Positions 1 to 40,086 of a DNA stretch of 64,000 nt are shown here, piece after piece; the stretch's first letter is position 1, and the number at the start of each line of letters is the position of its first letter. Made by a program: the position numbers and the translations under genes. The stretch comes from Verrucomicrobiota bacterium (GTDB taxonomy: Bacteria > Verrucomicrobiota > Verrucomicrobiia > Verrucomicrobiales > Verrucomicrobiaceae). The DNA lies in assembly GCA_025360015.1 (NCBI GenBank), contig JANYCZ010000011.1, forward strand, positions 186,001 through 250,000, read 5' to 3'. The notes under the pieces were generated by a model. It was not told the origin of the DNA. It saw only the letters and a list, made by a program, of their open reading frames with translations, and did no database searches.

Positions 1-61
1 GGAGGTTTGGCCAAGGGAGTTTAGGCGTGCTGAAAACCGGAGCCCGCCAAGCAAACCCATT

Positions 62-1267: not shown

Positions 1268-1397
1268 CGTTGTTATTTTTGAAATAAGCCGGGAGACGGG
1301 AAACTCCAACAACGAGTCTGCGAAAAGCGAGGGTTGCGCCCCCGGCCCGCCTTTCCATCTTCCGCGACCTTTCCTTCCCCCTTCCACACCACATTTC

Positions 1398-2330
1398 ATG
1401 GAAAACGTCATCATCATCGGCACCGGCTGCGCCGGCTACACGGCGGCCATTTACACCGGCCGCGCCAACTTGAAGCCCCTCATCCTCTCCGGCAACATGC
1501 CCGGCGGGCAGCTCACCACGACCACGGAGGTCGAAAACTTTCCCGGCTTCCCGAACGGCATCATGGGGCCGGAGCTGATGATGAACATGCAGACGCAGGC
1601 GGAAAAATTCGGCGCACGCATCGAGTACTCGCTTGTCAGCAGCGTCAAAAAGACCGCAGCAGGCTATTTCGAAGTGCACACTGACGGCGGCACCGTGTAT
1701 GAAACCCACACCGTGATTGTGGCCACAGGCGCTTCCCCGAAGCACCTCGGCCTGCCAAACGAGAAAGGCCTCATCGGTCGCGGTTTGACCAGTTGTGCCA
1801 CCTGCGATGGTGCCTTCTACCGCAACGTCCCCGTCTGCGTCATCGGTGGTGGAGACAGCGCCTGCGAAGAAGCCGGATTCCTCACCAAATTCGCCAGCAC
1901 CGTCTATTTAATCCATCGCCGCGACTCCCTGCGAGCTTCGAAGATCATGGCCGACCGCGCCTTGGCCAATCCGAAGATCAAGCCCGTCTGGAACTCCACC
2001 GTCAGTGAATACCTCACCGACGAGAAGGGTGAAATGCGCGCCGTGACGCTGGAAAACCTCATCACTGGCGAGAAGAACGAGCTGGAACTGAAGTGTGTCT
2101 TCGTCGCTATCGGCCACGTGCCGAACGGCCAGTTCCTCGGCGATCTCGTCGATACCGACGAAGGCGGCTACATCCTGCAGACCCAGGGCACACGCACCAA
2201 GACCGAAGGCCTATTTGCCGCTGGTGACGTGGCCGACCATGTCTATCGTCAGGCCATCACCGCCGCCGGCCAGGGCTGTGCCGCCGCGCTGGAGGCGGAA
2301 CGCTACCTCGCCGACCACGGCGTGCATTGA
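1398..2330 (+). CDS. trxB: Thioredoxin reductase (NADPH)
   Basis: This is a 310-residue flavoprotein that passes electrons from NADPH through FAD to thioredoxin in the cytoplasm. The FAD motif IIGTGCAGYTAA sits at the N-terminus, the redox pair is C133-A-T-C136, the NADPH motif VIGGGDSACEEA follows, and the FAD-closing motif LFAAGDVAD is near the end. Length is normal for low-molecular-weight TrxB. The ATG at 1398 begins the protein exactly at the FAD fold (MENVIIIGTG); the open frame continues upstream but is not conserved-looking. Divergent from an MFS gene, and followed 65 bp on by an L,D-transpeptidase with its own promoter. Confidence 0.95.
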   Translation: MENVIIIGTGCAGYTAAIYTGRANLKPLILSGNMPGGQLTTTTEVENFPGFPNGIMGPELMMNMQTQAEKFGARIEYSLVSSVKKTAAGYFEVHTDGGTVYETHTVIVATGASPKHLGLPNEKGLIGRGLTSCATCDGAFYRNVPVCVIGGGDSACEEAGFLTKFASTVYLIHRRDSLRASKIMADRALANPKIKPVWNSTVSEYLTDEKGEMRAVTLENLITGEKNELELKCVFVAIGHVPNGQFLGDLVDTDEGGYILQTQGTRTKTEGLFAAGDVADHVYRQAITAAGQGCAAALEAERYLADHGVH

Positions 2331-2358
2331 TTGACGCTGGACAGAGGTGCTGTATTAT
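2331..2358 (+). promoter_or_regulatory. Putative sigma-70 promoter for the L,D-transpeptidase gene
   Basis: A TTGACG box at 2331-2336 and a TATTAT box at 2353-2358 are separated by 16 bp, directly after the trxB stop codon and 38 bp before the next start. The same TTGAC-N16-TATT layout recurs upstream of rplY. This is a sequence match only. Confidence 0.6.
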
Positions 2359-2395
2359 TCCGGCTTTCCACGTCGCGCACACGTAACCCCTACGC

Positions 2396-3010
2396 ATGAG
2401 TCAATTGGTAATCCCCCAAGCCGTCCGCCTCGCCCTCCTTTCCGCCCTCGCACTGCTGGCCTCCTGCCAGGGTGGGAGTTCACGCGGACAGACGCAATAC
2501 CTTGAAGCCTTCTCAACGGGAAGCGTGCCGCATTCTTCGATGTACAATGCCGACCAGGATTCCTACTGGGATGGCGATGGCATGTCCGGAGCGCCCAGCA
2601 TCACCATCGATCTCAGCGACCAGAAGGCCTACTTTTACAAAGGCGGTGCACTGGCCGGAGTCTCCGCGCTTTCCACGGGCGACGAGCGGCATGCGACCAA
2701 GCCCGGCACTTTCAAGGTCTTTGAGAAAGACCAGTGGCACAAATCCAACCTCTATGGCGACTTTGTGGACAGCGCGGGCAACGTCGTCGTGGCCAACGTT
2801 GACGTCACCAAGGACAAAGCGCCTCCGGGTACACGGTTTGAAGGCTCCAAGATGCATCATTTCATGCGCTTCGTGGGCGGCATCGGCATGCATGAAGGAT
2901 TCCTCCCCGGCTACGCCGCCTCGCATGGCTGCGTGCGCATGCCTCCGCACATGGCGGCCATTTTTTACAACAACGTCGCCAAAGGCACACCCGTCACGGT
3001 GCGGCCCTGA
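2396..3010 (+). CDS. L,D-transpeptidase (YkuD) lipoprotein
   Basis: A 204-residue lipoprotein with a signal peptide ending in the lipobox LLASC (Cys about residue 24), then a YkuD catalytic domain. The domain starts at SITIDLSDQKAYFYKGG, a typical first strand, and ends with the catalytic SHGCVRMP motif (His177, Cys179). Enzymes of this family make 3-3 crosslinks in peptidoglycan or attach proteins to it, and the lipobox puts this one on a membrane facing the periplasm. It is a paralogue of the gene at 55457-56065, with the same strand order and the same motif. A sigma-70-like promoter lies immediately upstream. The exact acceptor substrate cannot be read from sequence. Confidence 0.88.
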   Translation: MSQLVIPQAVRLALLSALALLASCQGGSSRGQTQYLEAFSTGSVPHSSMYNADQDSYWDGDGMSGAPSITIDLSDQKAYFYKGGALAGVSALSTGDERHATKPGTFKVFEKDQWHKSNLYGDFVDSAGNVVVANVDVTKDKAPPGTRFEGSKMHHFMRFVGGIGMHEGFLPGYAASHGCVRMPPHMAAIFYNNVAKGTPVTVRP

Positions 3011-3031
3011 CAACCCTCCCCGTCTGAAATC

Positions 3032-3376
3032 ATGACACCGGAAACACCGCTAGAAATCGGCCCCACGGATGTCAGCTATCTGATCGGACGCCCCGGCGAG
3101 CGCACCTTCCGTCTCATTGACTGCCGCGAGGAAAGTGAATGGCAGATCTGTCATTTGCCGGATGCACAGCTCGTGCCTCTGTCCCAGTTCGGTGAACTCG
3201 CACAGCAGCTCTTCACCAACACGCAGGAGAATCTCGTCATCTACTGCCACCACGGCATGCGCAGCCTGCGCGCCGCACAGTTTTTACGGCAGCATGGCTT
3301 CGTCCACGCGCAGAGCATGCGTGGGGGCATTGACGCCTGGGCGGACATGGTCGATCCCGAAACACCACGTTACTGA
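3032..3376 (+). CDS. Rhodanese-like sulfurtransferase
   Basis: A 114-residue single-domain rhodanese. It has the entry motif LIDCREESEWQICHLPDA and the active-site loop YCHHGMRS with the sulfur-carrying Cys72, followed by AAQFLRQHGF and GGIDAW, all typical of the GlpE/PspE class. It has no signal peptide and should be cytosolic. It starts 21 bp after the L,D-transpeptidase and may share its transcript. The physiological sulfur donor and acceptor are unknown. Confidence 0.88.
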   Translation: MTPETPLEIGPTDVSYLIGRPGERTFRLIDCREESEWQICHLPDAQLVPLSQFGELAQQLFTNTQENLVIYCHHGMRSLRAAQFLRQHGFVHAQSMRGGIDAWADMVDPETPRY

Positions 3377-3452
3377 CACACATCTCAGGGCAGTTTGCTG
3401 TGGCGCATGATGGCCGGGCAGCTACCCTCAATGCCATCCCCCGCACGCACGC

Positions 3453-4427
3453 ATGGTTCGACTTCTCACACAGCAAGGACAGCTCATCGACTGGAACGAC
3501 GAAAAGACGCATCCGTTCCCGGACAATCTGGTCTTTCTCGATCTGCTGAACCCTGGCCGTGCCGAGGAACTGGAGGCGGAAAAATGGCTCGAGTACCAGC
3601 TCCCCACGCGTGAAGAAATGCAGGAGATCGAAGAATCCAGCCGACTCTACACGGAGAAGGGGACTTTGTACATGACCGCATGGCTGCCCGTCGGGCTGGA
3701 CACGCCTGATCCTGACAACACTTCCATTTCCTTCGTCATCGCGCCCGACTGCCTCACCACCGTGCGCTATGCCGACCCTTTGTCCTTCCGCATTCTCCCA
3801 GATCAGGCGAAACGCCAGTGCAGCACTCCGCTGACCAGTGATGCCGTCTTTCTACTCCTGCTGGAGCTCATCGTCGCCCGCATCGCCGATGCCTTGCAGG
3901 GAGTCGAAGGTGACATGAAAAAAATCTGCCGTGACATCTTCAGCCTCGATCCGCACAAAGCGCACGCATCGGTGGAAAAAGACCTCAGCGATGTGGTCAA
4001 GCTGCTGGGACGCCGCAGCGCCCTCGTGGCCAATGTGCGCGAGAGCCTGCTCAGCATCAGCCGCATGCTGCAGTACTTCCTCAACAACGCCGCCACCTGG
4101 ATGCGTGGAGATCTTGCCGCGCAGTTTCGCAGCGTGATGCGCGACATCAAGAGCATGGACGACTACACCAACCAGCAGACGCAGGAGATGACCTTCCTGC
4201 TGGAGTCCACACTGGGCCTCATCAACATCCAGCAGAATCAGATCATCAAGATCTTCACCGTCGCCAGCGTGCTCTTCATGCCGCCGACCCTGATTGCCAG
4301 CATTTACGGCATGAACGTTGGCCTCCCCGCAGCCGATAACGGCTGGGCCTTCATCCTCGTCATGCTCATGATCGTCCTCTCCGCGATCCTGCCCATCGTG
4401 TACTTCAAGAGCAAGCGGATGCTGTAA
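3453..4427 (+). CDS. corA: CorA-family divalent metal ion transporter
   Basis: A 324-residue protein with a long cytoplasmic N-terminal region rich in helices, a coiled-coil stretch, and two C-terminal membrane segments. The family signature YGMN is present, with GMN at residues 286-288 between the membrane helices, which forms the pore mouth of the CorA pentamer. Mg2+ is the usual substrate; Co2+, Ni2+ or Zn2+ cannot be excluded. The ATG at 3453 gives a family-typical length. It ends 6 bp before the convergent sulfatase. Confidence 0.88.
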   Translation: MVRLLTQQGQLIDWNDEKTHPFPDNLVFLDLLNPGRAEELEAEKWLEYQLPTREEMQEIEESSRLYTEKGTLYMTAWLPVGLDTPDPDNTSISFVIAPDCLTTVRYADPLSFRILPDQAKRQCSTPLTSDAVFLLLLELIVARIADALQGVEGDMKKICRDIFSLDPHKAHASVEKDLSDVVKLLGRRSALVANVRESLLSISRMLQYFLNNAATWMRGDLAAQFRSVMRDIKSMDDYTNQQTQEMTFLLESTLGLINIQQNQIIKIFTVASVLFMPPTLIASIYGMNVGLPAADNGWAFILVMLMIVLSAILPIVYFKSKRML

Positions 4428-20740: not shown

Positions 20741-20877
20741 ATTGAGGATTGAAAATTGGCCGACGGGGAAACTGCAAAGCCGTCGCACGCCGTCCTCTCC
20801 AGTCAGTAGGTCGAGAGCCTAGGAGGGATGTTCACTTTGATCTTGTGAAAGTGTGGGGCTTTGCAGAGGATGGGCTC

Positions 20878-21759
20878 ATGAAGAGATGCGTTTTCGCGAT
20901 GGTGGTGGCCTGCTCGATTCTGGGCGGTTCATCTGTTCTGGCGCAAAGTCTGGATGAAATGCGGGCCAAGGCCGAGAAGGGCGATGCCAAGGCGCAGTAC
21001 GATCTAGCCACGAGTTATTTCAAAGGTGCCGGAGTGGCCAAAGACAACGCCGAAGCCGTGAAGTGGTTGCGCAAGGCGGTCGAGCAGGGCTTTGCCAAGG
21101 CGCAGCGAAGTCTAGGCTTCATGTATTCCGAAGGCCAGGGTGTGACGAAAGACGATGCAGAGGCCGTGAAGTGGTGGCGCAAAGCGGCGGACCAGGGCGA
21201 TGCAAGGGCGCAATTCAATCTCGGCCTGATGTATGCCCAAGGCACCGGTGTGGCCAAAGACGATGCCGAAGCCGTGAAGTGGTACCGCAAGGCGGCTGAG
21301 AAGGGCGAGCCCAAGGCGCAGAACAATCTCGGTGCGATGTATTTCAATGGGACCGGTGTGGCCAAAGATGATGGCGAAGCGGTGAAGTGGTATCGTAAGG
21401 CAGCGGAGCAGGGAAATGCCTGGGCGCAGAGCAATCTCGGCTGGATGTATTTAGATGGTAACAGGGTGGCCAAAGATGAAGCCGAAGCCGGGAGGTGGTA
21501 CCGCAAAGCTGCGGAGCAGGGCGATGCCTATGCGCAGTACCAACTCGCCATCTGCTACGCCCAAGGCCGGGGCGTTACCCGGGACCCGGTGGAAGCCTAC
21601 AAGTGGGTCAGCTTGGCCGCAGCTCAGGGAGAGGAGAAGGCGAAGAGCAGCCAGGAGGCGCTGGAACTCGCCCTCACGCCCGAGCAGCTCGCGGAAGCGC
21701 AAAGACTAGCGCGGGAGTGGAAGCCCACAAAGGGGCCGGGGGCGAAGGCTGCCAAGTAG
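20878..21759 (+). CDS. Secreted Sel1-repeat protein
   Basis: A 293-residue protein with a signal peptide (MKRCVFAMVVACSILGGSSV, cleavage after LAQ) followed by six 36-residue Sel1 (TPR-like) repeats of the form G-x-A-x-AQ-x-x-LG-x-MY-x-x-G-x-GV-A-KD-x-x-EAVKW-x-RKAAEQ, and a partial seventh. The repeats are also visible in the DNA with a 108-bp period, suggesting recent expansion. Sel1 solenoids bind proteins, and exported ones often take part in envelope or host-contact complexes; the partner is unknown. The start at 20878 is chosen for the signal peptide and an AGAGGA sequence just upstream. Confidence 0.9.
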   Translation: MKRCVFAMVVACSILGGSSVLAQSLDEMRAKAEKGDAKAQYDLATSYFKGAGVAKDNAEAVKWLRKAVEQGFAKAQRSLGFMYSEGQGVTKDDAEAVKWWRKAADQGDARAQFNLGLMYAQGTGVAKDDAEAVKWYRKAAEKGEPKAQNNLGAMYFNGTGVAKDDGEAVKWYRKAAEQGNAWAQSNLGWMYLDGNRVAKDEAEAGRWYRKAAEQGDAYAQYQLAICYAQGRGVTRDPVEAYKWVSLAAAQGEEKAKSSQEALELALTPEQLAEAQRLAREWKPTKGPGAKAAK

Positions 21760-25346: not shown

Positions 25347-27017
25347 CTACTGAAGCGACTTAACGAGTTCAATCGCAGAGCGGCCTTCCTCCCGACGGAA
25401 ATCGACGCGGTCAAAGATCTCGCTGATGACATGGAGGCCGAGGCCGCCGATGCGGCGATCAATGGAGGGAGGCGCGACAAGCTTCTGAAAATCTTCGTTG
25501 GTGATGCCGGACCCAAAATGCTCAATGAGGATGCGGACGGAGTCCGGGCCTGACTCCATGCGGCAGCTGGCGGCGCGTCCGGTGCTGGTGGAGCAGTAGG
25601 CGTATTTGCAGATGTTGCTCATCACTTCATCACAGCCCAGCACGAGGAGGCCGGTGAATTCATCGGCCAGGCCATGATAGGCGGACCATGCCTCGATGAA
25701 CTCGCGCACCAGGCGCAGCGTGTCTGGATGGCAGGTGAGGGCGATTTCGTCTGGCGGCGGTGGAGAGTGATCCGTGATCATCAGCACGGTAGCGTCATCC
25801 TGATAGCTTGAGTCCTGGGCGAAGGTGCGCCATTGCTCGACGAGATGGTTTAAGAAACCGTCGTCGCCATTGGAATGCTGCAGTGCGGCGGCAAAGGCAT
25901 GGTCTTCGAAGTACTCGCCCGCGCTGTTTTGTACTTCGAGGATGCCGTCGGTGTAGAGCATCCATTGACGGCCGGCGCTGAAGGGAAGGTTGGCCGCCTC
26001 ATAGCGCGCGGCGCATGAGATGCCCAGCGGGGCATTTCCGGGCGCAACGACTTCCTTCCATACTTTGCCATCAAACACCTGCGCACCGGGAAGGCCGGCG
26101 CAGCAGAGCCACACGCGCCGCATTTTGGGGCAGACGAGCATGGCATTGATGGCGATGAAGCGTCCCGCCTTCATCACACCACAGAGGCGTTTGTTCAGCG
26201 TCGCCATCCATTCGGCGAGGTTCATCGAGACGCATAGATGCGCGGTGGAGGCGATGAGTGTGGTGCCGCGTGCCATGTCGAGTGCGGCGGCGAGCCCTTT
26301 GCCGCAGACATCGCCGACACCGAGGAGGATTTTGCCATCGTCGATCTGGTGCCAGAAATAGAAATCGCCGCCGACTTCGCTGGCGGGTTCATAGAAGGTC
26401 TCGACTGAGACCTCGCCCAAACGCACCTGCGGCGCAGGGAGGAATGAGTTTTGGATTTCCGTGGCCAGTGAGAGCTGCTGGCGGTTTTCGGCCTCGAGAA
26501 TCGCCTTCTTCTGCGATTCGAGCCGCATCAGCGTCACGGCGATGAGGCTGCCAAAAATTTCAAACATCTCCACGTCCTGGGTGGTGAAGGCAGCGCCGTG
26601 GTTCGGATTGATCGCCTGCATGACGCCAAGGCAGCGATCACCATCCAGCAGAGGAATCGTGACCATCGCACGGGTGACGAGATCAGATTTGTCGGACGCC
26701 GGCCGGAAGTGGCGCGGATCATGGAGTGCGTCTTCGATGTTAACGACGGTTTTGGTCGAATAGACTTCACCCGCAATGCCTTTGCCTTTTGGGACGCGGA
26801 CTTCCATCACATTGATGGGATCGAGCGTGGAACGGATGAGGAGGTCCTCGCTCGGGCCGTCTGGAAGCAGGATGGAGCACACTTCGCAGTCCATGACCTC
26901 GCGCGAACGCTGCAGGATGTGATCGACCAGTTCGACCAAGTTCTGGGTGCTGCTAAGACGCCGTGCGACTTCGAGCAGGACGCTTTGACGTGATGCGATG
27001 GGTTGAGAGTTACTCAC
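25347..27017 (-). CDS. GAF - PP2C (SpoIIE/RsbU-like) phosphatase - HATPase fusion
   Basis: A 556-residue soluble signalling protein. An N-terminal GAF sensor domain (about 10-165) is followed by a short coiled coil, a PP2C-type phosphatase (about 185-405; metal motifs EVGGDFYFW, GVGDVCGKG, LYTDGILE and DDATVLMI), and a C-terminal anti-sigma-type HATPase (about 415-556; N-box CDEVMSNICKYAY, G2-box GGLGLHVI). One chain thus joins a partner-switch phosphatase (RsbU-like) with the kinase fold of RsbW, the two opposing activities on a STAS protein. The GTG at 27017 overlaps the mlaD stop as GTGAGTAA, showing translational coupling to the Mla genes; the frame upstream of it lies in mlaD and is spurious. 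The STAS protein at 29855 is the obvious candidate substrate. Confidence 0.9.
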   Translation of the reverse strand: MSNSQPIASRQSVLLEVARRLSSTQNLVELVDHILQRSREVMDCEVCSILLPDGPSEDLLIRSTLDPINVMEVRVPKGKGIAGEVYSTKTVVNIEDALHDPRHFRPASDKSDLVTRAMVTIPLLDGDRCLGVMQAINPNHGAAFTTQDVEMFEIFGSLIAVTLMRLESQKKAILEAENRQQLSLATEIQNSFLPAPQVRLGEVSVETFYEPASEVGGDFYFWHQIDDGKILLGVGDVCGKGLAAALDMARGTTLIASTAHLCVSMNLAEWMATLNKRLCGVMKAGRFIAINAMLVCPKMRRVWLCCAGLPGAQVFDGKVWKEVVAPGNAPLGISCAARYEAANLPFSAGRQWMLYTDGILEVQNSAGEYFEDHAFAAALQHSNGDDGFLNHLVEQWRTFAQDSSYQDDATVLMITDHSPPPPDEIALTCHPDTLRLVREFIEAWSAYHGLADEFTGLLVLGCDEVMSNICKYAYCSTSTGRAASCRMESGPDSVRILIEHFGSGITNEDFQKLVAPPSIDRRIGGLGLHVISEIFDRVDFRREEGRSAIELVKSLQ

Positions 27018-28221
27018 GGCGTTTGAAGATATCGAGAATGCCTTTTTTCTTTTCCTCGGGGTTGGCGTTTTCGGAGGGCATGGGAGTGCTGGCGGCGGGT
27101 CTGGCGCCCGATTCGAGTTCTTTGATACGCACAGGGTAGGGGTCATGGGTGCGGCGCATGTGCTCGATGAGCTGCTCCTTGGTGGGCACCTCATTGGGCT
27201 TGCTGCCAAAGATCAGGCGGCTGGGCTTTCCGGCGAGTGTGCCGGTGATGTACTCACCCCAGATGACGAGGGCGTTCATCTCTTCCATCAGCGTGTTGAT
27301 CTTGCGCATGGTGGTGTCGAGATGCTTTTCCAAGCCGGGATTTGCGGAGGTGCCTCCACCTGCGAGGAGGCGGTGGAGATCGGTGGTGATTTCTTCGACG
27401 CGTGCCTTCAAGCCGGGCTTGCCATCGGGGGTGCCTGCAAAGGTCTGATTGAGCTCCTTGGAAAAACTTTCGAGATTGGCGAGGATGGCGTCCGTGCGGA
27501 TGGCGAGACCTTTGTCAGCCGCGCCTTTGGGGCCTTTGACAAGCTCTTGAATGCCGGTGGCGGTCTCTTCGAGCTTGTCGGCCACCGAGTTGATCTTTTG
27601 ACCGAAGCCGGGTGTTTTGCCGTCGCCTGCGAAGGTGATTTTCAACTCCTGGGTGAAGGCTTCGATGTTGGCCAGCGAGTCGGTGATTTTTTTGGCGGCA
27701 TCGCCTTTGCCGAGAGGGTCCGTGATTTTTTTGAGGTCGGCGCTGATGTCGCGGATGTTGGCGAAGATGGCATCGCCGCCGGGCAGCATCATTTCCAGCA
27801 GACTGCCGAGGCTGGTGGAGGTGAGCTGCGCGCCATTGGCCAGCAGGCCGTCTTCATCATCCAGGCGTATCAGGGCGATGTGTTTTTCACCGAGCATTGA
27901 CTCGGCGCTGATGATGATCTTGAGCCTGGCAGGCACCGGGGCTGGCTCGAAGACTTCGATGTGAACACGCACGGTGTTGGTTTGCAGGATGCGGTCGCCG
28001 GGCTGGAGGTGCTCGATGCGACTTACCACGCCGATGTGGTCGCCCGCGAGCAGCACGCTGGTGTTGCGGTGGATGCCGGTGATGTCGGCGAAATCTACGG
28101 AAAAGCGCAGATGAGGTTTGCGCCAGGGATCGCCAGAGATGGCGAAGACCAGCGCTCCCAGCAGCAGCAGGGAGCACAGAATGACCAGAGTCGCCACGGT
28201 GGCATCTTGCTTGTTTTTCAT
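27010..28221 (-). CDS. mlaD: MCE-family lipid-transport protein, MlaD-like
   Basis: A 403-residue protein with one N-terminal membrane helix (TLVILCSLLLLGALVFAI), an MCE domain at about 36-130 (FADITGIHRNTSVLLAGDHIGVV), a long helical segment of four heptad-rich stretches, and a charged C-terminal tail. MCE proteins form the periplasmic hexamer of Mla transporters that moves phospholipid between the membranes. It is longer than E. coli MlaD (183 residues), mainly in the C-terminal helical part, similar to actinobacterial and plastid forms. Order is mlaE-mlaF-mlaD with gaps of under 3 bp, so it is a transporter set. Confidence 0.9.
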   Translation of the reverse strand: MKNKQDATVATLVILCSLLLLGALVFAISGDPWRKPHLRFSVDFADITGIHRNTSVLLAGDHIGVVSRIEHLQPGDRILQTNTVRVHIEVFEPAPVPARLKIIISAESMLGEKHIALIRLDDEDGLLANGAQLTSTSLGSLLEMMLPGGDAIFANIRDISADLKKITDPLGKGDAAKKITDSLANIEAFTQELKITFAGDGKTPGFGQKINSVADKLEETATGIQELVKGPKGAADKGLAIRTDAILANLESFSKELNQTFAGTPDGKPGLKARVEEITTDLHRLLAGGGTSANPGLEKHLDTTMRKINTLMEEMNALVIWGEYITGTLAGKPSRLIFGSKPNEVPTKEQLIEHMRRTHDPYPVRIKELESGARPAASTPMPSENANPEEKKKGILDIFKRRE

Positions 28222-28223
28222 GG

Positions 28224-29090
28224 CTAGGAGGAATGAATGGCTTGGCTGGATGGGTCGAGGCCCAGCAGTGTTTCGCGGTAGAGTTCTTCGCCGGCGTCGT
28301 CACCGTTGTGACCCTGTGGGTCGCCATTGATGAACTGCTGCACGGCGGGGTGGGGATGCGCGCGAATTTCCGCCGGGGTGCCGGCGGCGAGGATTTTTCC
28401 CTGATTCGGACCGGTGCCGAGCATGATGATGCGGGTGCCGATACGGAAGACGCTGTTCATGTCATGCGTGACGACGACGACGGTGGCCCCGATTTTTTGC
28501 GTGAGGCGCTGCGTGAGTTCATCGACCACAGCGGTCATGATGGGGTCAAGGCCGGCGGTGGGCTCATCGCTGAAAACGAGCGGCGGGTCCAGAGCCAGAG
28601 CGCGGGCGAGCGCGGCACGCTTTTTCATGCCGCCGCTGATCTCTGAAGGCTTCTTGTGACCGTGGCCGGTGAGGCCGACTTGTTCGAGCTTCATTTTGAC
28701 CACGGTGTCGATGAGTCCGGCGTCGAGCTGAGTGTGCTCGGTGAGAGGCAGTGCGACATTCTCTGCCACGGTGAGGGACTGCAGCAGGGCACCGGATTGA
28801 AACAGCATGCCGTAGCGTCCGCGCAGTTTGCGCATGGCATCGGAATTCATGGTGGTGATCTCCTGGCCAAAGATCTTGATGCTGCCGGAAGTAGGCTGCT
28901 CGGTGCCGATGAGGTGGCGGAGGAGTGTGCTCTTGCCACAGCCGCTGCCGCCCATGATGACAAAGGTGTCCCCCTCATAGACCTTGAAGCTCACGCCGTT
29001 GAGGACTTTCTGGGATCCAAAATTCCGCACGAGCGAATCGACCTCGATGATCGGTTCGCGGGCGGTCAGATCTGGAGTGGCGACAGGCAT
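28224..29090 (-). CDS. mlaF: ABC transporter ATPase, MlaF-like
   Basis: A 288-residue cytoplasmic ATPase. Walker A is GGSGCGKST (47-55), the Q-loop is LFQSGALL, the ABC signature is ISGGM (151-155), Walker B is LVFSDEP (171-177), and the H-loop is VVVTHD. SGGM in place of SGGQ and the FQSGALLQSLTV stretch are typical of MlaF/MCE-type ATPases. It drives the lipid transporter with the permease next to it, with which it overlaps by one base. A C-terminal extension of about 30 residues beyond the ABC domain is of unknown role. Confidence 0.95.
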   Translation of the reverse strand: MPVATPDLTAREPIIEVDSLVRNFGSQKVLNGVSFKVYEGDTFVIMGGSGCGKSTLLRHLIGTEQPTSGSIKIFGQEITTMNSDAMRKLRGRYGMLFQSGALLQSLTVAENVALPLTEHTQLDAGLIDTVVKMKLEQVGLTGHGHKKPSEISGGMKKRAALARALALDPPLVFSDEPTAGLDPIMTAVVDELTQRLTQKIGATVVVVTHDMNSVFRIGTRIIMLGTGPNQGKILAAGTPAEIRAHPHPAVQQFINGDPQGHNGDDAGEELYRETLLGLDPSSQAIHSS

Positions 29091-29836
29091 CAGAAGAAGA
29101 ACAGGGCGGTGAGCACCGCGTTGGCGATGAAGACGGTCAACAAGGAGACGACGACTGAGCGTGTCGTGGCGAGGCCGACACCTTCGGCACCGCCGGAGAC
29201 ATTCAGGCCGATGCTGCAGGCGATGGTCACGATCAACACACCGAAGATGCCGCTTTTGAGCATGCTGATGCCGATGTCGCTCAGCTCGACATATTGCAGC
29301 GCGTGACTGATGAAGAAGGCGGTGGACATGTGGAGGGAGAAATGGCCGATCAGCCAGCCGCCGGCGAGGCCCACGTAGATGCTAAACACGGTCAGCAGCG
29401 GCATCATGATGACCATGGCGAGAAAGCGCGGGACGATGAGCCATGACATCGGGGGGATCGCCATGACTTCGAGTGCTTCGATTTCTTCCGAGACCTTCAT
29501 GGTGCCAAGCTCCGCCGTGACCGAGGAACCGCTGCGGCCAATGACGATCACCGCGGTGACCAGCGGAGCGAGTTCGCGAATGAGGCTGGAGGACACCAGC
29601 CCGGGCACATAAACCGTGGCGCCCAGTTTGGCGAGCTGGGCGGCAGACTGCATGGCCAGCACCACGCCGATGGTCAGGGCGGTGAGTGCGGACATGGGCA
29701 CGGCATGCACGCCGATGCGCACGATCTGGGCAAACGTATGGCCCATGCGCCAGCCTCTACCACGAAAGGGAGCGACGAACAGCCAGTAGAGCAGACTTCC
29801 GCACAGCTCGAAGTATTGGCGGAATGCTTCGGTCAT
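29090..29836 (-). CDS. mlaE: ABC transporter permease, MlaE-like
   Basis: A 248-residue inner-membrane permease with about five or six helices. The family block ALTALTIGVVLAMQSAAQL, then LIRELAPLVTAVIVIGRSGS (with the conserved E and RSGS), EIEALEVMAIPP, and the PRFLAM stretch identify MlaE/YrbE. It forms a dimer carrying two MlaF ATPases and docks to the MCE hexamer. It lies 18 bp after the STAS gene and overlaps mlaF by one base. Confidence 0.95.
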   Translation of the reverse strand: MTEAFRQYFELCGSLLYWLFVAPFRGRGWRMGHTFAQIVRIGVHAVPMSALTALTIGVVLAMQSAAQLAKLGATVYVPGLVSSSLIRELAPLVTAVIVIGRSGSSVTAELGTMKVSEEIEALEVMAIPPMSWLIVPRFLAMVIMMPLLTVFSIYVGLAGGWLIGHFSLHMSTAFFISHALQYVELSDIGISMLKSGIFGVLIVTIACSIGLNVSGGAEGVGLATTRSVVVSLLTVFIANAVLTALFFF

Positions 29837-29854
29837 GGGCGGAGGCGGAAAGGA

Positions 29855-30205
29855 CTAACGTTTGCTGGTCAGGTCAACGGCGTTCAAGGCGGCTTCAACG
29901 GTGGGCAGATGGCTGATGAAGTCGCCCAGGCGGACGATCTTGAACGAGGCATCCACGCGGCCCTGAATCCCTGTCAGCGCAAATTCCGTGCCTGCACTGC
30001 TGGCGTGCTGGAAGTATTCCACCACCACGGCCCAGACCGGAGTGTTGACGAAGGTCACCTTGGAGAAGTCGATGATGAGCCGTTTCACTCCGGCCTTCAT
30101 CTGCTCGCGCACGACTTTTTGGAATTCAGGCACGGTCGCGAGGTCGGCGTCGCCCTCGAGTTCGATGACGACGGCGTTGGGGTAGGTGCGAACGGTGGGT
30201 TTCAT
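29855..30205 (-). CDS. STAS-domain protein (MlaB-like / anti-sigma antagonist)
   Basis: A 116-residue single STAS domain (VVIELEGDADLATVPEFQ, RLIIDFSKVTFVNTPVWAVV). In the Mla system a STAS protein (MlaB) binds and stabilises the ATPase; in sigma control a STAS protein (RsbV, SpoIIAA) is the partner of an anti-sigma kinase and a PP2C phosphatase. Both readings fit here, because Mla genes follow and a kinase-phosphatase fusion ends the run. The usual D-S-[S/T]-G phospho-acceptor motif reads N54-T55-P56-V57, so a Thr could be the acceptor. Gaps are 15 bp to xylB and 18 bp to mlaE. Confidence 0.85.
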   Translation of the reverse strand: MKPTVRTYPNAVVIELEGDADLATVPEFQKVVREQMKAGVKRLIIDFSKVTFVNTPVWAVVVEYFQHASSAGTEFALTGIQGRVDASFKIVRLGDFISHLPTVEAALNAVDLTSKR

Positions 30206-30220
30206 GAGAGTGTGGGGCGG

Positions 30221-31723
30221 TCAGAGCCAGCCGGTTTGATTGAGGCGGCCGGTGAGTTCCATCTGCCGCTCCAGTTGTGTGGCATAGAGCGCGGCATTTT
30301 CCGCGTTCGGTTTGCAGCGGGTGGATTCATCGAGCGTGACGAGTTTGGCGCAGAGCTGTTCGTAGCTCACGCGTTCACTGCCGCCCTGATTGGCGTGGGC
30401 ATAGGCGGCCTGGATGGCTCCGCCGAGCGCGGCGCCTTCGCTGGTGCTGAGCGTGACGACTTCGGCATTGAAGCAGTCGGCGGCGATCTGGCGCCAGACA
30501 CCGCTCTTGCTACCGCCTCCGGTAAGGCGGATTTCCGTCGGATTCATGCCGAGATCGCGGAAGCGTTTCAGGCCGTAGGCGAGGCCGAGGGTGGCACCTT
30601 CCACAGCGGCGCGCGCGAGGTTGGCAGGGGCCATGTTTCCAGGACGCAGGCCATGGATGACACCGCAGCCGTTTGGCAGATTCGGGGTGCGTTCACCATT
30701 GAGGTAGGGCAGGAACATCACGCCATCCGCACCGGCAGGGGCGGAATTTACTGCGACTTCGAGCTGGCGCAAATCCCAGCGGAACATCTCACGCACCTGC
30801 TCGGTGACGACGGTGACGTTCATGGTGCAGACGAGCGGCAGCCATTGATCGGTGCTGTCACAAAACGCAGCCACCTCGCCCTGGCCATCGACCACGGGGG
30901 ATGCGGCCACACCATAGAGTGTGCCGCTGGTGCCAAAACTCGCGGTGATGACGCCGGGCTTGATGTTGCCGGTGCCGATCGCGCCCATCATGTTGTCACC
31001 ACCGCCGGCGCTGACGATGACGTCGAAGTTCAGGCCCCATTTCACCGCGAGGTCCTTGCGGATGGTGCCATGCACCGATTTCGAGGAGCCGAGCGGTGGC
31101 AGCATGGCGCGCACGCTGGGGTCAATGTAATCACAGATTTCGTAGGCCCACTGGCGGGTGTTTACATTGAGGATGCCCATGCCGGAGGCGTCGCCGTATT
31201 CCATGCGCTTCACGCCGGTGAGCCAGAAGTTGATGTAATCGTGCGGGAGCAGAATGGTCTTCGTCTTGGCGAAATTTTCCGGCTCGTTCTGCTTCAGCCA
31301 CAGCAGCTTGGGAATGGTGTAGCCGGGCAGCATGGCATTGCCTGCAATGGCGATGACGCCCGGCTGGCCGCCGAAATGATGGGCGATCTCTGCGCACTGC
31401 GCCTGAGTGGAGGTGTCACACCACAGCTTGGCGGCCCGCACCGGCTTGTCGTCCGCACCGAGCGGGACCAGGCCGTGCTGCTGGCCGCTGACGCCAATGC
31501 CGGCGATCTTTGCCTTGTCCTTGCCGATCTGCTCCAGGCACTGCTGCACGGAGGCGTCCACTGCATCCAGCCATGACTGCGGGTCCTGTTCGAGATGGCC
31601 GGGCGGAAGGCCGTCGATCAAATCATATGAGCTGTGGCCGGTGGCGACGATTTTGCCTGAGTCGAGGTCGAGGACGATGGCCTTGGTGCTCTGAGTGCCG
31701 CTGTCGATGCCGAGGAAATACAT
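30221..31723 (-). CDS. xylB: Xylulokinase
   Basis: A 500-residue FGGY-family kinase phosphorylating D-xylulose with ATP, feeding the pentose phosphate pathway. The N-terminal phosphate loop FLGIDSGTQSTKAIVLD, the substrate block GISGVSGQQHG-like (GVSGQQHGLV), GYTIPKLLWLK with AGNAMLPGYT, and the second ATP block (SFGTSGTLYGV, RLTGGGSKSGVWRQIAAD) are all present. It lies 15 bp upstream of the STAS gene and may be the first gene of the long Mla run; why these are linked is not clear. The xylose isomerase gene is at 45064, not adjacent. A triple CTTGACCT motif lies 54 bp before the start. Confidence 0.95.
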   Translation of the reverse strand: MYFLGIDSGTQSTKAIVLDLDSGKIVATGHSSYDLIDGLPPGHLEQDPQSWLDAVDASVQQCLEQIGKDKAKIAGIGVSGQQHGLVPLGADDKPVRAAKLWCDTSTQAQCAEIAHHFGGQPGVIAIAGNAMLPGYTIPKLLWLKQNEPENFAKTKTILLPHDYINFWLTGVKRMEYGDASGMGILNVNTRQWAYEICDYIDPSVRAMLPPLGSSKSVHGTIRKDLAVKWGLNFDVIVSAGGGDNMMGAIGTGNIKPGVITASFGTSGTLYGVAASPVVDGQGEVAAFCDSTDQWLPLVCTMNVTVVTEQVREMFRWDLRQLEVAVNSAPAGADGVMFLPYLNGERTPNLPNGCGVIHGLRPGNMAPANLARAAVEGATLGLAYGLKRFRDLGMNPTEIRLTGGGSKSGVWRQIAADCFNAEVVTLSTSEGAALGGAIQAAYAHANQGGSERVSYEQLCAKLVTLDESTRCKPNAENAALYATQLERQMELTGRLNQTGWL

Positions 31724-35649: not shown

Positions 35650-37521
35650 TTACTTGGTTTTTTTCGTCCCGGGGCCGCGGGTGCGCTCGGATTTGATCTG
35701 GATGGGAGCGAGCTTGATGGTTTCGACCTGAACAATCACGGGGGGCGGGAAGGCGGAGTCGTCCTGTGTGGCTTCGCTGTCCGGGAGGGAATGTGCATCA
35801 CGCAAGGAGGCGATCTTGGACTCCAGTTCGGCGAGTTCGCGGCGGGCGGCCTCGATCTGGGCGGTCACTTCGCCATGCTGTGCGTTGGGTGCCTGTTCCG
35901 GCGTGCCGGAAGGTTTTGGAGCTTCTTCCGGAGCGGCCTGGCGTCTGGGCGCGGCCATTTGTGAGTTGTTCTGGGTGCCGCCGGCCTGTGCGTCACGGTA
36001 GCGCTGCTCGACTGCGGCGAGGCGCTGTCTGGCATCGGCGAGCTGCTGCTTCGTGCCGATGAGTTCCTGGCTTTGCTGCTCCAGTTCGGCACGCAGGGCT
36101 TTGGCTTCGGCGATGCGTTTGGTTTCGGCGGCAAGCTCGGCACTGCGTGAGGCAATGTTTTTGTCACAGGCGGCGAGTTCAGCGGTGCGTGCGGCCAGGT
36201 CTTTCTCTCTCGCGGCGAGGTCTGCCTGCATGCGCTGCAGCGCGCCTTCGGCGGCAGCGCCTTTTTGCTCCAACGTCATGAGGAGCGATTCGAGATCTTT
36301 GACAGCGGCTTCATCGCGCTGGTGTTTTGCACCGAGTGCTGTTGTGGAGGAGTTGAGAGTGGAGTGTTTGGCCTCCTCCTCAGCGATGCGTTTCTCGTGC
36401 TCGATGATCTGCTGGCGCAGGGAGTTTAACAAGGCCTCGTCCTGCTCGCACTCATCGCGCACCTGATTGAGGTGGGCGGCGGCCGCGTCTTTTTGCGCGA
36501 CGAGATCTTGGATCTCCTGCCGGGCTTCGGCCGCAGTGGCGGTGAGACGCTGGACCTCGGTGGACTTTTCGTAATGCTGGGCATTGAGGCGTTCGAGGGC
36601 GGCCGTCTTGTCGTCGTGCTGGATGGCAAGGGCGCTGATGGTTTCGAGCCACTCGCGGTGGGCGGATTCAGCCTGCTGCACGGCTGCTTGAGTGGGAGCG
36701 AGCTTTTCCTCCTCGGCACGCAGGGATTCCACGCGGGCAAAATGCAGGGCGCGTTCTTTTTCAGCGCGCTGCTGCCAGTCGCGCAGTTCTTTTTCAGCGG
36801 TGGCGACCTCGGTCTTGAGCCGTGATTTTTCCGCTTCCAGTTTTGCGATAGCTTCTTCCTGTCTGGCAATGGCTTCCTGGTGAGCGGTGTCGGGAGGCGG
36901 CGATGAGGCTGATGGGGCCGATGATGTTTCTAAGAGGGCCAAATGCAGGGCGCGCTCCTTTTCAGCACGCTGCTGCCATTCATGCAGCTCTTTTTCAGAT
37001 GCAGCGATCTCGGCCTTGAGTCGTGATTTTTGCGCTTCCAGTTTTGCCAAGGCTTCTTCCTGTCTGGTGATGGCTTCCAGATGGGCGGTGTCGGGAGGCA
37101 GTGGCTCCGCAGGAGCAGTGGGGGTTTCTGGGATCGACGTGGCTGCTGGGGGGGCAGGTGGAGGGGATGGCGGCGCAGTCTCAGCCTCCACGGGAAGAGG
37201 CGCGGATGCAGTCTCCTCCTTGGCGTTGGCGGCGTCTTCGAGATCCAGGATGCCCACGAGCGGGCCAAAGGCGATGGTGTCGCCATGGAGCAGGGTGCAG
37301 CTGAGCTGGCTTTCGCCATTGACGAAAGTGCCTGCGGTGGATTTCAGATCAAAGACTTGCAGGCTGCCATCGGCGTTTTGCACGATTTCAGCATGGTGTG
37401 AGGAGATGCGCTCGTCATCGACCACAATGTCATTGTCCTCGCCACGTCCGATGGTGATGTGTTCCTTGAGGGGAACCACCACTTCTTGTCCGTCTTCGAG
37501 AACGAAAGTGAGTTTGGCCAT
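35650..37521 (-). CDS. FHA-domain coiled-coil protein B
   Basis: A 623-residue protein with an N-terminal FHA domain (about 5-95: ITIGRGEDNDIVVDDERISSHHAE, then STAGTFVNGE) that should bind phospho-threonine, a Pro-rich linker (105-142), and about 400 residues of coiled coil. The chain ends in a Pro-rich and basic tail. There is no membrane segment. Residues 144-195 and 211-262 are an internal duplication. It is a tandem paralogue of the gene upstream, and the kinase at 15941 is a possible source of phospho-partners. Function unknown; a cytoskeletal or scaffold role is suggested by the structure. Confidence 0.85.
   Translation of the reverse strand: MAKLTFVLEDGQEVVVPLKEHITIGRGEDNDIVVDDERISSHHAEIVQNADGSLQVFDLKSTAGTFVNGESQLSCTLLHGDTIAFGPLVGILDLEDAANAKEETASAPLPVEAETAPPSPPPAPPAATSIPETPTAPAEPLPPDTAHLEAITRQEEALAKLEAQKSRLKAEIAASEKELHEWQQRAEKERALHLALLETSSAPSASSPPPDTAHQEAIARQEEAIAKLEAEKSRLKTEVATAEKELRDWQQRAEKERALHFARVESLRAEEEKLAPTQAAVQQAESAHREWLETISALAIQHDDKTAALERLNAQHYEKSTEVQRLTATAAEARQEIQDLVAQKDAAAAHLNQVRDECEQDEALLNSLRQQIIEHEKRIAEEEAKHSTLNSSTTALGAKHQRDEAAVKDLESLLMTLEQKGAAAEGALQRMQADLAAREKDLAARTAELAACDKNIASRSAELAAETKRIAEAKALRAELEQQSQELIGTKQQLADARQRLAAVEQRYRDAQAGGTQNNSQMAAPRRQAAPEEAPKPSGTPEQAPNAQHGEVTAQIEAARRELAELESKIASLRDAHSLPDSEATQDDSAFPPPVIVQVETIKLAPIQIKSERTRGPGTKKTK
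36736..37092 (-). repeat. Internal duplication in FHA protein B (two ~156-bp units)
   Basis: Units 36937-37092 and 36736-36891 encode near-identical coiled-coil segments (DTAH-EAI-RQEEA-AKLEA then EKELHEWQQ or EKELRDWQQ). The period is 201 bp. DNA similarity is high, so the event is fairly recent or the copies convert each other. Confidence 0.7.
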
Positions 37522-37620
37522 TGAGAGATTTTACGTTTAACCGGCGCAGCAAAGTCGATGAAATGCGCGGAATCAATCAGGCATTTGAATCTGCCCTCAA
37601 ATGAATGCAGGAAGAGTGCC

Positions 37621-40086
37621 TCAATCCGCTGTTTTTTTAGCCAGACGGTCAATGGTGGCCTCAAAATTTTTGAGTTCGGTATGGGCTAGATCGGCCTGCT
37701 GGCGGAGATCGCTGCGCTGGCGCTCCGCCTCGGTGACGGCGGTGCGTAGTTCAGCAAGCTTGTGCTCCAGCTCGCCGAGCCGTTCACGCCGCTTTTCCTC
37801 CTCAGCCTGAGAGAGTTCGATGCTGTGAAGCAAGGAGTGATGACGCTCCTGCTCCTGCCGGATTTTAGTCTCAAGATGGCGGCTCTGCTCGCGCATGATG
37901 GCATCAGCGGCGGCATTGTTTCGGTGGGGGGAGTCATGACGCGTGCGCTCCAGGCGCAGCTGCTCGAGGCGTGACTCTTCGCGCTGGACGCTTTCACGCA
38001 GGTGGCCGAGGCGTGAGCGGAGGGTGGTTTCCTGCGCGGTGCCAGCAGCCGCCTGCGAGCCACCGACGCGGGGGCCGCGTGCGGGCTCAGCTCTTCCATT
38101 GGCTATCTGGGAGAGGGTGCTGCTTTGAGATGCCGAGGGCACAGGCGCATGAGCCTGAGTGCGGGCGGTGGTGACGAGATCGAGGAGACCGGCTTTTTCC
38201 TTTTCGATCTCATGCCAGAGGTCACGCGCTTCGGCGGAATCCTGCGGCAGTGTGGCGAGGCGTGCATAGAGCTGGTCCATGGCCTCTTTCCAGTCACGCA
38301 ACGGCTGGAGCCGGGACAGGAGATCCGCCAGATCAGTGCGGGCGGTTGCGAGGCTGGAGGTGAGCTGCTGCTGCCGTGAGGTGTGTTCTTTTTCCGCCTC
38401 GGCGACAAGCTGGCGGACTTCCTCGAAACGGGTGCGGTGAGTGCGCTCGGCAGTGCCAAGCTGCGTGAGCTCGGCGCGCAGGTCATTCTCGCGGGCATGC
38501 AGCACGTCGATGCGGCCCTTGGTGGCGCTTTCATCACCTGCGAGAGACTTGAGGGCGGCTTTTTGCTCCGTGATCTGGGCCTCAGTCGCGGCGATGGCGG
38601 ATTTCGTTTCTGCAAGCTGCTGTGTGGCAGTGGCAAACTCGGACTTCACCGTGGTGAGCTTTTGACCGGTGTCGGCTAGTTCCTGGCACTCCCGGTCGAG
38701 TTCGGCGCGGCGCGACTCGATTTCTTCCAGCCGCTGCGTTTCCGCGGAGAGTTCCGCATTGCGGCTGACGAGGTCCTTGGCGCGTGCAGCGAGTTCATCC
38801 TGAGTGTGCTGCAGGGATTCCTCCACAAATTGCCGTGCGGCGAGGGCCTCGGCGGTGGCTGTGGCGGTTTGCTGGTGAGAAGCCTGCAGGGTGGCGATGC
38901 GGGACTCGAGATCTTTGACAGCTGCTACGGAGTGCTGCTGATCGAGTCCAAGCGCGGTAATGGCGGCCGTGAGCGTGGCATGCTGCGCCTCGGCTTCGCG
39001 GCAACGCGTGCGGGCCTGCACGAGTTTTTCCTCCGTGCCGGTGAGTTCATGGATGTGAGCCTCAAGCTGGACGCGTTGCTGGGAGAGCTGCTCGAGTTTC
39101 TTTTCCGCCGACTTCAACTGGTCTTCACGGACGTCGGCGACTTCTTTGCTGTGCTGGCTGCGTGTTTCGAGTTCGGCGACCTGCCGCCGCAGATCGTTGA
39201 GCGCTGCCTCATCATGCACGCATTCGGCGCGGATCTGCTGAAGATGGGCCAGCGCCTGGTCCCTGTGCGTGGCAAGTCCTTCAAGCTCGAGCCTGGCAGC
39301 GGCTTCGTCACTGGTAAGGCGCTGCAAATCGGCGGCTTTCTGATCTTGCTGGGAAGAGAGACGCTGCACGGTGCTGGCTTGCTCCTCATGGCGGGTGGCT
39401 AGAGCCTCGATGGACTTGAGCCATTCCCCATGCGCTGCCGCGGCCTCCTGAACCGCCGTCTTGACGGGGCCGAGGCGTTCCTCCTCGGCGCGCAGGGCCT
39501 CCACGCGTGCAAGATGGGTGGCCTGCTCCGATGCTGACTTCTCCTGCCAGTCGCGCAGGTCTTTTTGCACGGCATCCCGTTCCTTCTGCAACTGGGCTTT
39601 TTCCGTCTCAAATCGGGTGAGCGTCTCTTGTTGTTCGGCCTCCTGCTGGGCCATGCGCTCTTCGTCAGCGAAATCTTTTCTGCCTCCCCGGTTTTTTTTG
39701 CGAGTGCCGATCTTGTCGGCTTTCACCGGGGTGCTGAGTGTCAAAGCCTGGGTGTCAGAGCCTGAAGGCATGCTGCCGTTGGCACCGTTGGTGGTGGTCT
39801 CTTCAAGGTCAAGGACGGCGGTGAGCGGTCCGAACGCCAGACTGTCGCCATGCAGGAGGGTTTGGCTGCGGATGCGCTCGCCATTGACGAAAGTACCGGC
39901 GGTGGAGTTGGAATCGAACAACTGGATGCTGCCGTCCGCATTGCGCACCAACTCGGCGTGGCGTTTTGAGACACGGTCGTCATCGACGACGACGTCGTTG
40001 TCCTCTCCGCGTCCGACTGTGATGTGCTCCGCCAAGGGGACCACGATTTCCTGGCCGTCTTCGAGAACAAAAGTGAGTTTGGCCAT
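37621..40086 (-). CDS. FHA-domain coiled-coil protein A
   Basis: An 821-residue paralogue of the next gene. The N-terminal FHA domain (ITVGRGEDNDVVVDDDRVSK, then RHAELVRN and STAGTFVNGE) has all phospho-peptide-contacting positions (G-R, S..H, N-G). A basic linker follows (KKNRGGRKDFADEE), then ~650 residues of nearly uninterrupted coiled coil. The coiled coil aligns with that of protein B, e.g. DLRDWQEKSASEQATHLARV. It is cytosolic by prediction. The two genes are separated by 99 bp; AT-rich sequence in the gap may hold a promoter for B. Confidence 0.88.
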   Translation of the reverse strand: MAKLTFVLEDGQEIVVPLAEHITVGRGEDNDVVVDDDRVSKRHAELVRNADGSIQLFDSNSTAGTFVNGERIRSQTLLHGDSLAFGPLTAVLDLEETTTNGANGSMPSGSDTQALTLSTPVKADKIGTRKKNRGGRKDFADEERMAQQEAEQQETLTRFETEKAQLQKERDAVQKDLRDWQEKSASEQATHLARVEALRAEEERLGPVKTAVQEAAAAHGEWLKSIEALATRHEEQASTVQRLSSQQDQKAADLQRLTSDEAAARLELEGLATHRDQALAHLQQIRAECVHDEAALNDLRRQVAELETRSQHSKEVADVREDQLKSAEKKLEQLSQQRVQLEAHIHELTGTEEKLVQARTRCREAEAQHATLTAAITALGLDQQHSVAAVKDLESRIATLQASHQQTATATAEALAARQFVEESLQHTQDELAARAKDLVSRNAELSAETQRLEEIESRRAELDRECQELADTGQKLTTVKSEFATATQQLAETKSAIAATEAQITEQKAALKSLAGDESATKGRIDVLHARENDLRAELTQLGTAERTHRTRFEEVRQLVAEAEKEHTSRQQQLTSSLATARTDLADLLSRLQPLRDWKEAMDQLYARLATLPQDSAEARDLWHEIEKEKAGLLDLVTTARTQAHAPVPSASQSSTLSQIANGRAEPARGPRVGGSQAAAGTAQETTLRSRLGHLRESVQREESRLEQLRLERTRHDSPHRNNAAADAIMREQSRHLETKIRQEQERHHSLLHSIELSQAEEEKRRERLGELEHKLAELRTAVTEAERQRSDLRQQADLAHTELKNFEATIDRLAKKTAD

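Follow-up and report, generated by a model that had tools for sequence, protein, structure and literature searches.

A STAS protein and a GAF-PP2C-HATPase regulator encoded with an Mla-type transporter in Verrucomicrobiota: a candidate partner switch on lipid transport

The window analysed here is a stretch of 64,000 nucleotides from the 6.6 Mb genome of a Verrucomicrobiota bacterium (assembly GCA_025360015.1, contig JANYCZ010000011.1, positions 186,001 to 250,000), and it holds one tight run of five genes on the minus strand, 25347-30205, in which an Mla-type lipid transporter is encoded between a STAS protein and a protein with GAF, PP2C and HATPase domains, here called GPH. The STAS gene (29855-30205, minus strand; Pfam STAS 2.4e-16) encodes an MlaB-like protein of 116 residues, with Thr55 in the motif FVNTPVWA. 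It is followed on the same strand by mlaE (29090-29836), for a permease of 248 residues (Pfam MlaE 2.5e-72; NCBIfam TIGR00056, 234.1 bits against a cut-off of 212.2), by mlaF (28224-29090), for an ATPase of 288 residues with Y271, L275 and L276 in its C-terminal tail (Pfam ABC_tran 2.2e-33), and by mlaD (27010-28221), for an MCE-domain protein of 403 residues (Pfam MlaD 7.6e-9). The set of an MCE transporter, permease, ATPase and MCE protein, is complete in this single operon. The last gene, GPH (25347-27017, minus strand), starts with GTG at 27017 and encodes 556 residues with the Pfam domains GAF (2.2e-18), SpoIIE/PP2C (2.2e-29) and HATPase_c_2 (2.6e-17).

The gap between STAS and mlaE is 18 bp, mlaE and mlaF overlap by 1 bp (TGATG), and 2 bp separate mlaF from mlaD. 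The junction of mlaD and GPH is an 8-bp stop/start overlap, GTGAGTAA (27010-27017, minus strand), with the mlaD stop lying within the GPH start. Upstream, 15 bp before STAS and on the same strand, is xylB, an FGGY kinase gene by Pfam (30221-31723). The earlier note had described a run of six genes, and their identity, common strand, spacing and domains are all borne out by the open reading frames, the junctions and Pfam; the place of xylB in the unit is another matter and is taken up with the conservation below. A promoter scan found none, with 1.9 expected by chance, and is uninformative.

Conservation was followed in 35 genomes of the genus, the source included, and in another 21 of the order. 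Of the 35, 18 have a GPH orthologue (75-100% identity), and the GPH matches in the other 21 genomes were at most 30% identical. The order STAS-mlaE-mlaF-mlaD-GPH is seen in 15 of the 18 carriers (the window and 17 other stretches). In one of the others, G022, the contig begins at mlaF and carries mlaF-mlaD-GPH, and in G031 and G027 STAS adjoins GPH and mlaE, mlaF and mlaD are absent. STAS orthologues occur in 17 genomes of the genus, and close MlaE orthologues (89-100%) in 15, every one of them together with STAS and GPH. The motif GTGAGT(A/G)A at the mlaD/GPH junction is kept in six of seven other loci compared, L117 being the exception, and L115 keeps it though its GPH is merely 59-60% identical. 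The mlaE and mlaF matches lie about 400-490 bp apart in L073, L074, L078 and L085, with nearly no gap in the other same-genus loci; the spacer of L073, the one translated, has stops in the frames translated.

In the whole family, GPH matches at E <= 1e-55 were found in 24 of 68 genomes. Four divergent loci (L108, L109, L115 and L117, GPH 58-81% identical) have the five genes in order, L118 has the same order with GPH interrupted by a contig end, and the order returns in L135 and L136, from another genus of the family, and in L123, from another family, with GPH at 26-38% and STAS at 23-30% identity. No match to xylB, DUF374 or rsuA was found beside the cassette in L108, L109, L115 or L117, nor to xylB in L123, L135 or L136. 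With the cassette standing free of an adjoining xylB in seven divergent loci, xylB was dropped as a member and is judged a neighbour outside the conserved unit.

In the class sample, 71 of 384 genomes had a GPH match at E <= 1e-65; counts in these large searches are lower bounds, as for most genomes at most three candidates were scored. Besides G000 and G370, the latter the one genome of its order, 26 matches reach the HATPase part, and 25 were examined, leaving out G596 (a frame of 311 residues). The full order is present in 13 of the 25, from families f85, f86, f90, f92, f100, f102, f103, f112 and f125, with STAS 23-31% and GPH 28-36% identical to the window. Three more are cut by contig ends yet consistent with the order (L176, L186, L196), and L183 has mlaD-GPH alone. 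When 17 cassettes were compared, the genes were on the same strand in all, and identities to the window were 39-61% for MlaE, 52-64% for MlaF, 23-31% for STAS, 24-31% for MlaD and 27-38% for GPH. The order is thus kept in at least eleven families, the window's included, at low sequence identity, and because it recurs in so many families the arrangement must be more than chance. The check proposed in the earlier note, whether the gene order is kept, came out in its favour in the genus, family and class samples of Verrucomicrobiota.

Shorter matches gave a different picture. In the class, 44 matches stop short of the HATPase part or reach only its beginning, and 17 of the shorter matches were read (L201-L215, G361 and G305, the last two being L124 and L125); the frame of G305 does include the HATPase part. 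The cassette was found in one of the 17, L201, and at least two of L201-L215 have little upstream sequence. The sample of the phylum gave four GPH matches in 387 genomes at E <= 1e-65, the same four again at 1e-55 when a different profile was used, and 140 of 387 at 1e-45, most of these lacking the complete set of three domains. The rarity that this sample suggested was corrected by the class sample. At 35 further loci of the phylum sample, some of them in short stretches, no mlaE match was found: 28 with PP2C and HATPase (L139-L166) and seven with GAF-PP2C (L167-L173). On these loci the idea that every PPM phosphatase of this kind adjoins mla genes was rejected. The mlaF match at L139 belongs, judging by the open reading frames, to another kind of ABC transporter, and the STAS matches at L139-L173 were disregarded, as the query included the HATPase part.

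The predicted fold of the STAS protein (mean pLDDT 74.1) is best matched by SpoIIAA bound to SpoIIAB (Z 15.4, 111 residues, 2.1 Å). E. coli MlaB is absent among the sequence and fold matches listed, and such lists exclude no subfamily; a one-domain STAS protein encoded together with MlaE, MlaF and MlaD is what is seen with the MlaB subunit. N54, T55, P56 and W58 are invariant in two alignments of window-clade copies (17 and 9 sequences), and HMMER aligns the N-T-P of the STAS protein opposite the D-S-S of SpoIIAA-type antagonists. A Ser within D-S-S is the residue phosphorylated in these antagonists, and because the two motifs align, Thr55 stands at the phospho-serine position. Residues were counted across loci in an alignment with 30 GPH rows, 20 MlaF rows and 18 STAS rows. 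All 18 STAS rows, T55 of the window among them, have Ser or Thr at the SpoIIAA/RsbV-type phospho-site. The site is Ser-Ser-Gly in 15 rows, preceded by Asp in 14 and by Ala in L123, and Asn-Thr-Pro in the other three (window, L135, L136).

A search of solved structures with MlaF gave structures named MlaF at ranks 3-5, those at ranks 1-2 being named ABC transporter ATP-binding protein only. HMMER aligns the tail of the window MlaF with that of Pseudomonas MlaF, and Y271, L275 and L276, invariant in seven aligned copies, correspond to Tyr261, Leu265 and Leu266 of E. coli MlaF, which according to the published account fit into a groove formed by MlaF and MlaB (PMC7367683). The tail Tyr is present in 17 of 20 MlaF rows. 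The other three MlaF proteins of the source genome (L090-L092) are without the docking tail, and no STAS match was found on their contigs.

The predicted model of GPH (mean pLDDT 78.3) has the RsbU-RsbW domains of Rv1364c as its top Foldseek match (3ke6, E 2.6e-17), with a TMq of 0.34; therefore the domains match, their arrangement does not. Among solved structures, the relatives of the GAF part come mostly from cyclic-nucleotide phosphodiesterases and adenylate cyclases. In PP2C domains the conserved Asp residues bind metal, and in HATPase domains of this type the Asp of the G1 box contacts adenine. The metal-site residues are kept in the window GPH (Asp218, Asp236, Asp357, Asp407/408), and the four columns are Asp in all 30 GPH rows. 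Of the features of RsbW and SpoIIAB, the N-box Glu and Asn (Glu464 and Asn468, kept wherever the rows are readable) and the Gly-rich G2 box are present. The G1-box Asp is replaced by His500 in the window, and the His is found in all 18 copies of one alignment and in L108, L109, L115, L117, L135, L136 and L176. The 30 GPH rows have Asp in 24, His in four (window, L135, L136, L176) and an unreadable position in two (L198, L201). Asp was also found in 21 of 21 readable other proteins of a separate alignment and in seven of seven other HATPases aligned from the source genome, which has 37 HATPase matches.

Because His500 stands in for the G1-box Asp, kinase activity of the window GPH is doubtful, and by this residue the protein would not qualify as an active RsbW kinase. 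The earlier note had ascribed both opposing activities to it; the two domains are there and the PP2C Asp residues are kept, and it is the kinase half of that claim that the His of this clade calls into question. Most copies in the class combine a Ser-Ser-Gly STAS site with complete kinase motifs. In the GPH tree the His group forms one clade (100/100, six rows; midpoint root, with some long branches meeting), and the same group is one clade in the MlaF tree (97/100), with three other Mla ATPases of the source genome outside it. The STAS sites of the His clade are all Asn-Thr-Pro where STAS was seen, which leaves out L176. Neither tree firmly puts the His clade inside the Asp group. The form with Asn-Thr-Pro and His is probably derived, mainly because Asp and Ser-Ser-Gly are the general state.

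An MlaE orthologue was sought elsewhere in the genomes of six carriers whose GPH is without a full adjacent cassette. In G639, G628 and G602 GPH is unlinked, and a separate run of STAS-mlaE-mlaF-mlaD, its STAS with DSSG, is present. In G470 STAS-mlaE-mlaF lies at one place and mlaD-GPH at another. The split operon thus leaves both halves in the genome in four of the six cases.

The two same-genus genomes with STAS beside GPH, both metagenome assemblies, were looked at for traces of the transporter. In G031 the spacer holds 24 bases encoding SSLIRELA, which is part of MlaE, and then the final codons of mlaD, and because these remains lie between STAS and GPH the arrangement is read as a deletion. 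By eye the mlaE piece differs from the window mlaE in two bases, and L078 contains no exact copy of a 13-base part of it. In the GPH tree, in which several forks are unsettled, G031 falls among relatives that carry the transporter. Its STAS and GPH frames are open and constrained as in the relatives, with no sign of relaxed selection (GPH dN/dS 0.057-0.067 in five pairs with L087, 0.049-0.068 in ten other pairs), which argues that STAS and GPH work as a pair that has value, for some time at least, without the transporter. In G027 six bases separate the end of STAS from GPH, and the upstream genes are different ones; by eye, a small antitoxin and PIN-type toxin pair takes the place of xylB there (L084).

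Two known kinds of system meet in this operon. With E. coli MlaFEDB it shares MlaE, MlaF, MlaD, a one-domain STAS protein with Ser or Thr at the position of T52, and the Tyr-Leu-Leu tail of MlaF. As described in the available parts of two papers (PMC7367683, PMC5016091), the MlaFE complex could not be isolated without MlaB, and T52 of MlaB is the equivalent of the phospho-site: T52A keeps the assembly and abolishes ATPase activity, and T52E weakens the binding to MlaF. Phosphorylation of MlaB at this SpoIIAA-equivalent Thr is proposed in both papers, and not shown in the parts available. The window operon differs in ending with the GPH gene and in having no MlaC or MlaA in the run. A separate set resembling MlaE-F-D-C-A by eye, without STAS, is present in the source genome (L092).

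With Rv1364c (3ke6), and with SpoIIE or RsbU acting together with SpoIIAB or RsbW, the operon shares a PP2C and an RsbW-like HATPase in one chain and a STAS partner. The differences are that a lipid transporter lies next to the pair and is presumably what it acts on, that STAS is a separate gene, and that the window clade has His in the G1 box. SypE of Vibrio fischeri likewise combines the two activities in a single enzyme acting on a STAS protein of one domain: in the available part of the source it is a dual kinase and phosphatase of SypA, acting at Ser56, and the target of SypA is unknown (PMC8256260). No transporter is known in the V. fischeri system. The sensor part of SypE also differs from that of GPH.

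Taken together, we think it rather probable, though well short of certain, that the operon encodes a partner-switched Mla-type lipid transporter with the MlaB-like STAS protein as the phospho-target. As the MlaB subunit, the STAS protein would dock on MlaF and be required for active MlaFED. GPH would sense a signal through its GAF domain, and its PP2C domain would strip the phosphate from STAS; the RsbW-like HATPase would bind STAS, and in the canonical form of the class it would also phosphorylate it. A signal to GAF would then give dephosphorylated STAS, which binds MlaF and turns the transporter on, and STAS that is kinase-bound or phosphorylated would leave it off. In the window copy, with Thr for Ser, the HATPase may bind STAS without phosphorylating it, or may use the nucleotide differently. 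The genes, their order and conservation, the domain residues, the MlaF tail and the co-occurrence in trans are observed; the STAS binding, its phosphorylation, the direction of the switch, the signal and the derived status of the window form we infer. A wider proposal, for which the case seems to us evenly balanced, is that a dedicated phospho-partner switch acts on an ABC lipid transporter throughout the class by way of the hold of MlaB on MlaF, and that the window lineage has rebuilt it, the change from Ser-Ser-Gly to Asn-Thr-Pro being coupled with that from Asp to His, to give a one-way phosphatase or a phosphate-free sequestration.

Several observations weigh against this reading. The STAS protein is nearest to SpoIIAA-type antagonists in both sequence and fold, and MlaD, a transporter part, has diverged across the 17 cassettes as much as the regulators. 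The kinase has its G1-box substitution in the window, and in the cassettes L198 and L201 the GPH frame as read stops before the HATPase (423 and 429 residues). The MlaF proteins of L135, L136 and L176 are without the docking tail, the Tyr being absent. Among the 25 class homologues, eight show no mla gene in the sequence examined around them; for three of the eight a contig ends within about 1.1 kb, and two of the other five, G587 (88% complete) and G536 (95%), have no close mlaE elsewhere in the genome, their MlaE proteins being at most 40% identical to the query. In the phylum sample the matches ranking next, G305 and G361, are not beside mla genes. Finally, G031 and G027 imply that the STAS-GPH pair has another output, that the losses are recent, or that the assemblies are at fault. 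The interpretation in the earlier note is supported in part: the conserved order, the co-occurrence in trans and the MlaF tail speak for its link between transporter, STAS and GPH, the membership of xylB and the presence of both opposing activities in this copy are not supported, and the two genomes with STAS-GPH alone suggest that the pair serves more than this transporter.

These observations bear on what else the genes could be doing. G031 and G027 hint at a second output beyond the transporter, and it is conceivable, if unlikely, that STAS and GPH are a partner-switch pair with its main output elsewhere, on a sigma factor or other target, the transporter being co-expressed and STAS either doubling as a subunit or sharing the promoter. 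The SpoIIAA-type matches of STAS, the pair standing alone in G031, with its scar, and in G027, and the two carriers lacking a close mlaE are what would be expected then. Against it, the run contains no sigma-factor gene (the genome was not searched for any), each of the 15 close MlaE orthologues in the genus is accompanied by STAS and GPH, MlaF retains the tail for docking MlaB, and where GPH lies apart the STAS gene sits with mlaE-mlaF, away from GPH, in four of six carriers.

It is improbable, to our judgement, that the switch in the window lineage works independently of phosphorylation, with the HATPase as a pseudokinase that sequesters STAS until a GAF ligand or nucleotide frees it for MlaF, and with the PP2C domain vestigial or serving the phosphate of another kinase. 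The His is clade-wide where other rows, other proteins and the other HATPases of the source genome have Asp, and the His rows form one clade with Asn-Thr-Pro at the STAS site wherever it was seen, which fits such a change; yet the PP2C Asp residues and the N-box Glu and Asn are kept and Thr55 is invariant, suggesting that phosphorylation still matters. That the genes are merely co-located, STAS being a constitutive MlaB and GPH acting on an unrelated STAS protein, is very hard to credit. Other partners are at hand, as the source genome has ten STAS matches, nine of them others, and several RsbW-type HATPase matches, but the order is kept in at least eleven families at low identity, the GTGAGT(A/G)A junction in six of seven loci, and STAS and GPH are adjacent in two genomes even without the transporter genes. 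STAS and RsbW-type HATPase matches of the source genome are neighbours on contigs C34, C30 and C18; on C18 a stretch of about 3 kb holds two STAS and three HATPase matches.

Both halves of the partner-switched transporter, the Mla transporter and the partner switch, are of known kinds, and it is their coupling that seems new. Literature searches (PMC titles and abstract starts among the matches listed, with most subscription papers outside) gave no paper that links Mla genes to a PP2C/RsbW enzyme. The operon offers a candidate enzyme for the phosphorylation of MlaB, placed beside the transporter in many species, so that cognate proteins are at hand for a test. If it is true, partner switching extends past gene regulation to membrane transport, and the lipid balance of the envelope comes under on/off control driven by a sensor. 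The window clade would be a natural experiment on what becomes of a phospho-switch when substrate and kinase sites change together.

It was also possible to observe other features in the data. In L139 (positions 19-4005, genome G311 of the same phylum) the end of a permease gene, an amino-acid-type ABC ATPase, a STAS protein and a PP2C-HATPase protein form one run, which may be another ABC transporter linked to partner switching. The ATPase has 368 residues, and its extra C-terminal part, where there is no Pfam match, resembles by eye a degenerate RsbW-type domain. Elsewhere in the window, Rfam at the gathering threshold gave two tRNAs, and at 35650-40086 lie two adjoining genes whose long coiled-coil products begin alike, with FHA-like starts by eye. 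A Sel1-like repeat protein is encoded at 20749-21759 between rpsF and lysC (names by eye), and the stretch that matches this gene in L079/L105 yields many repeat matches.

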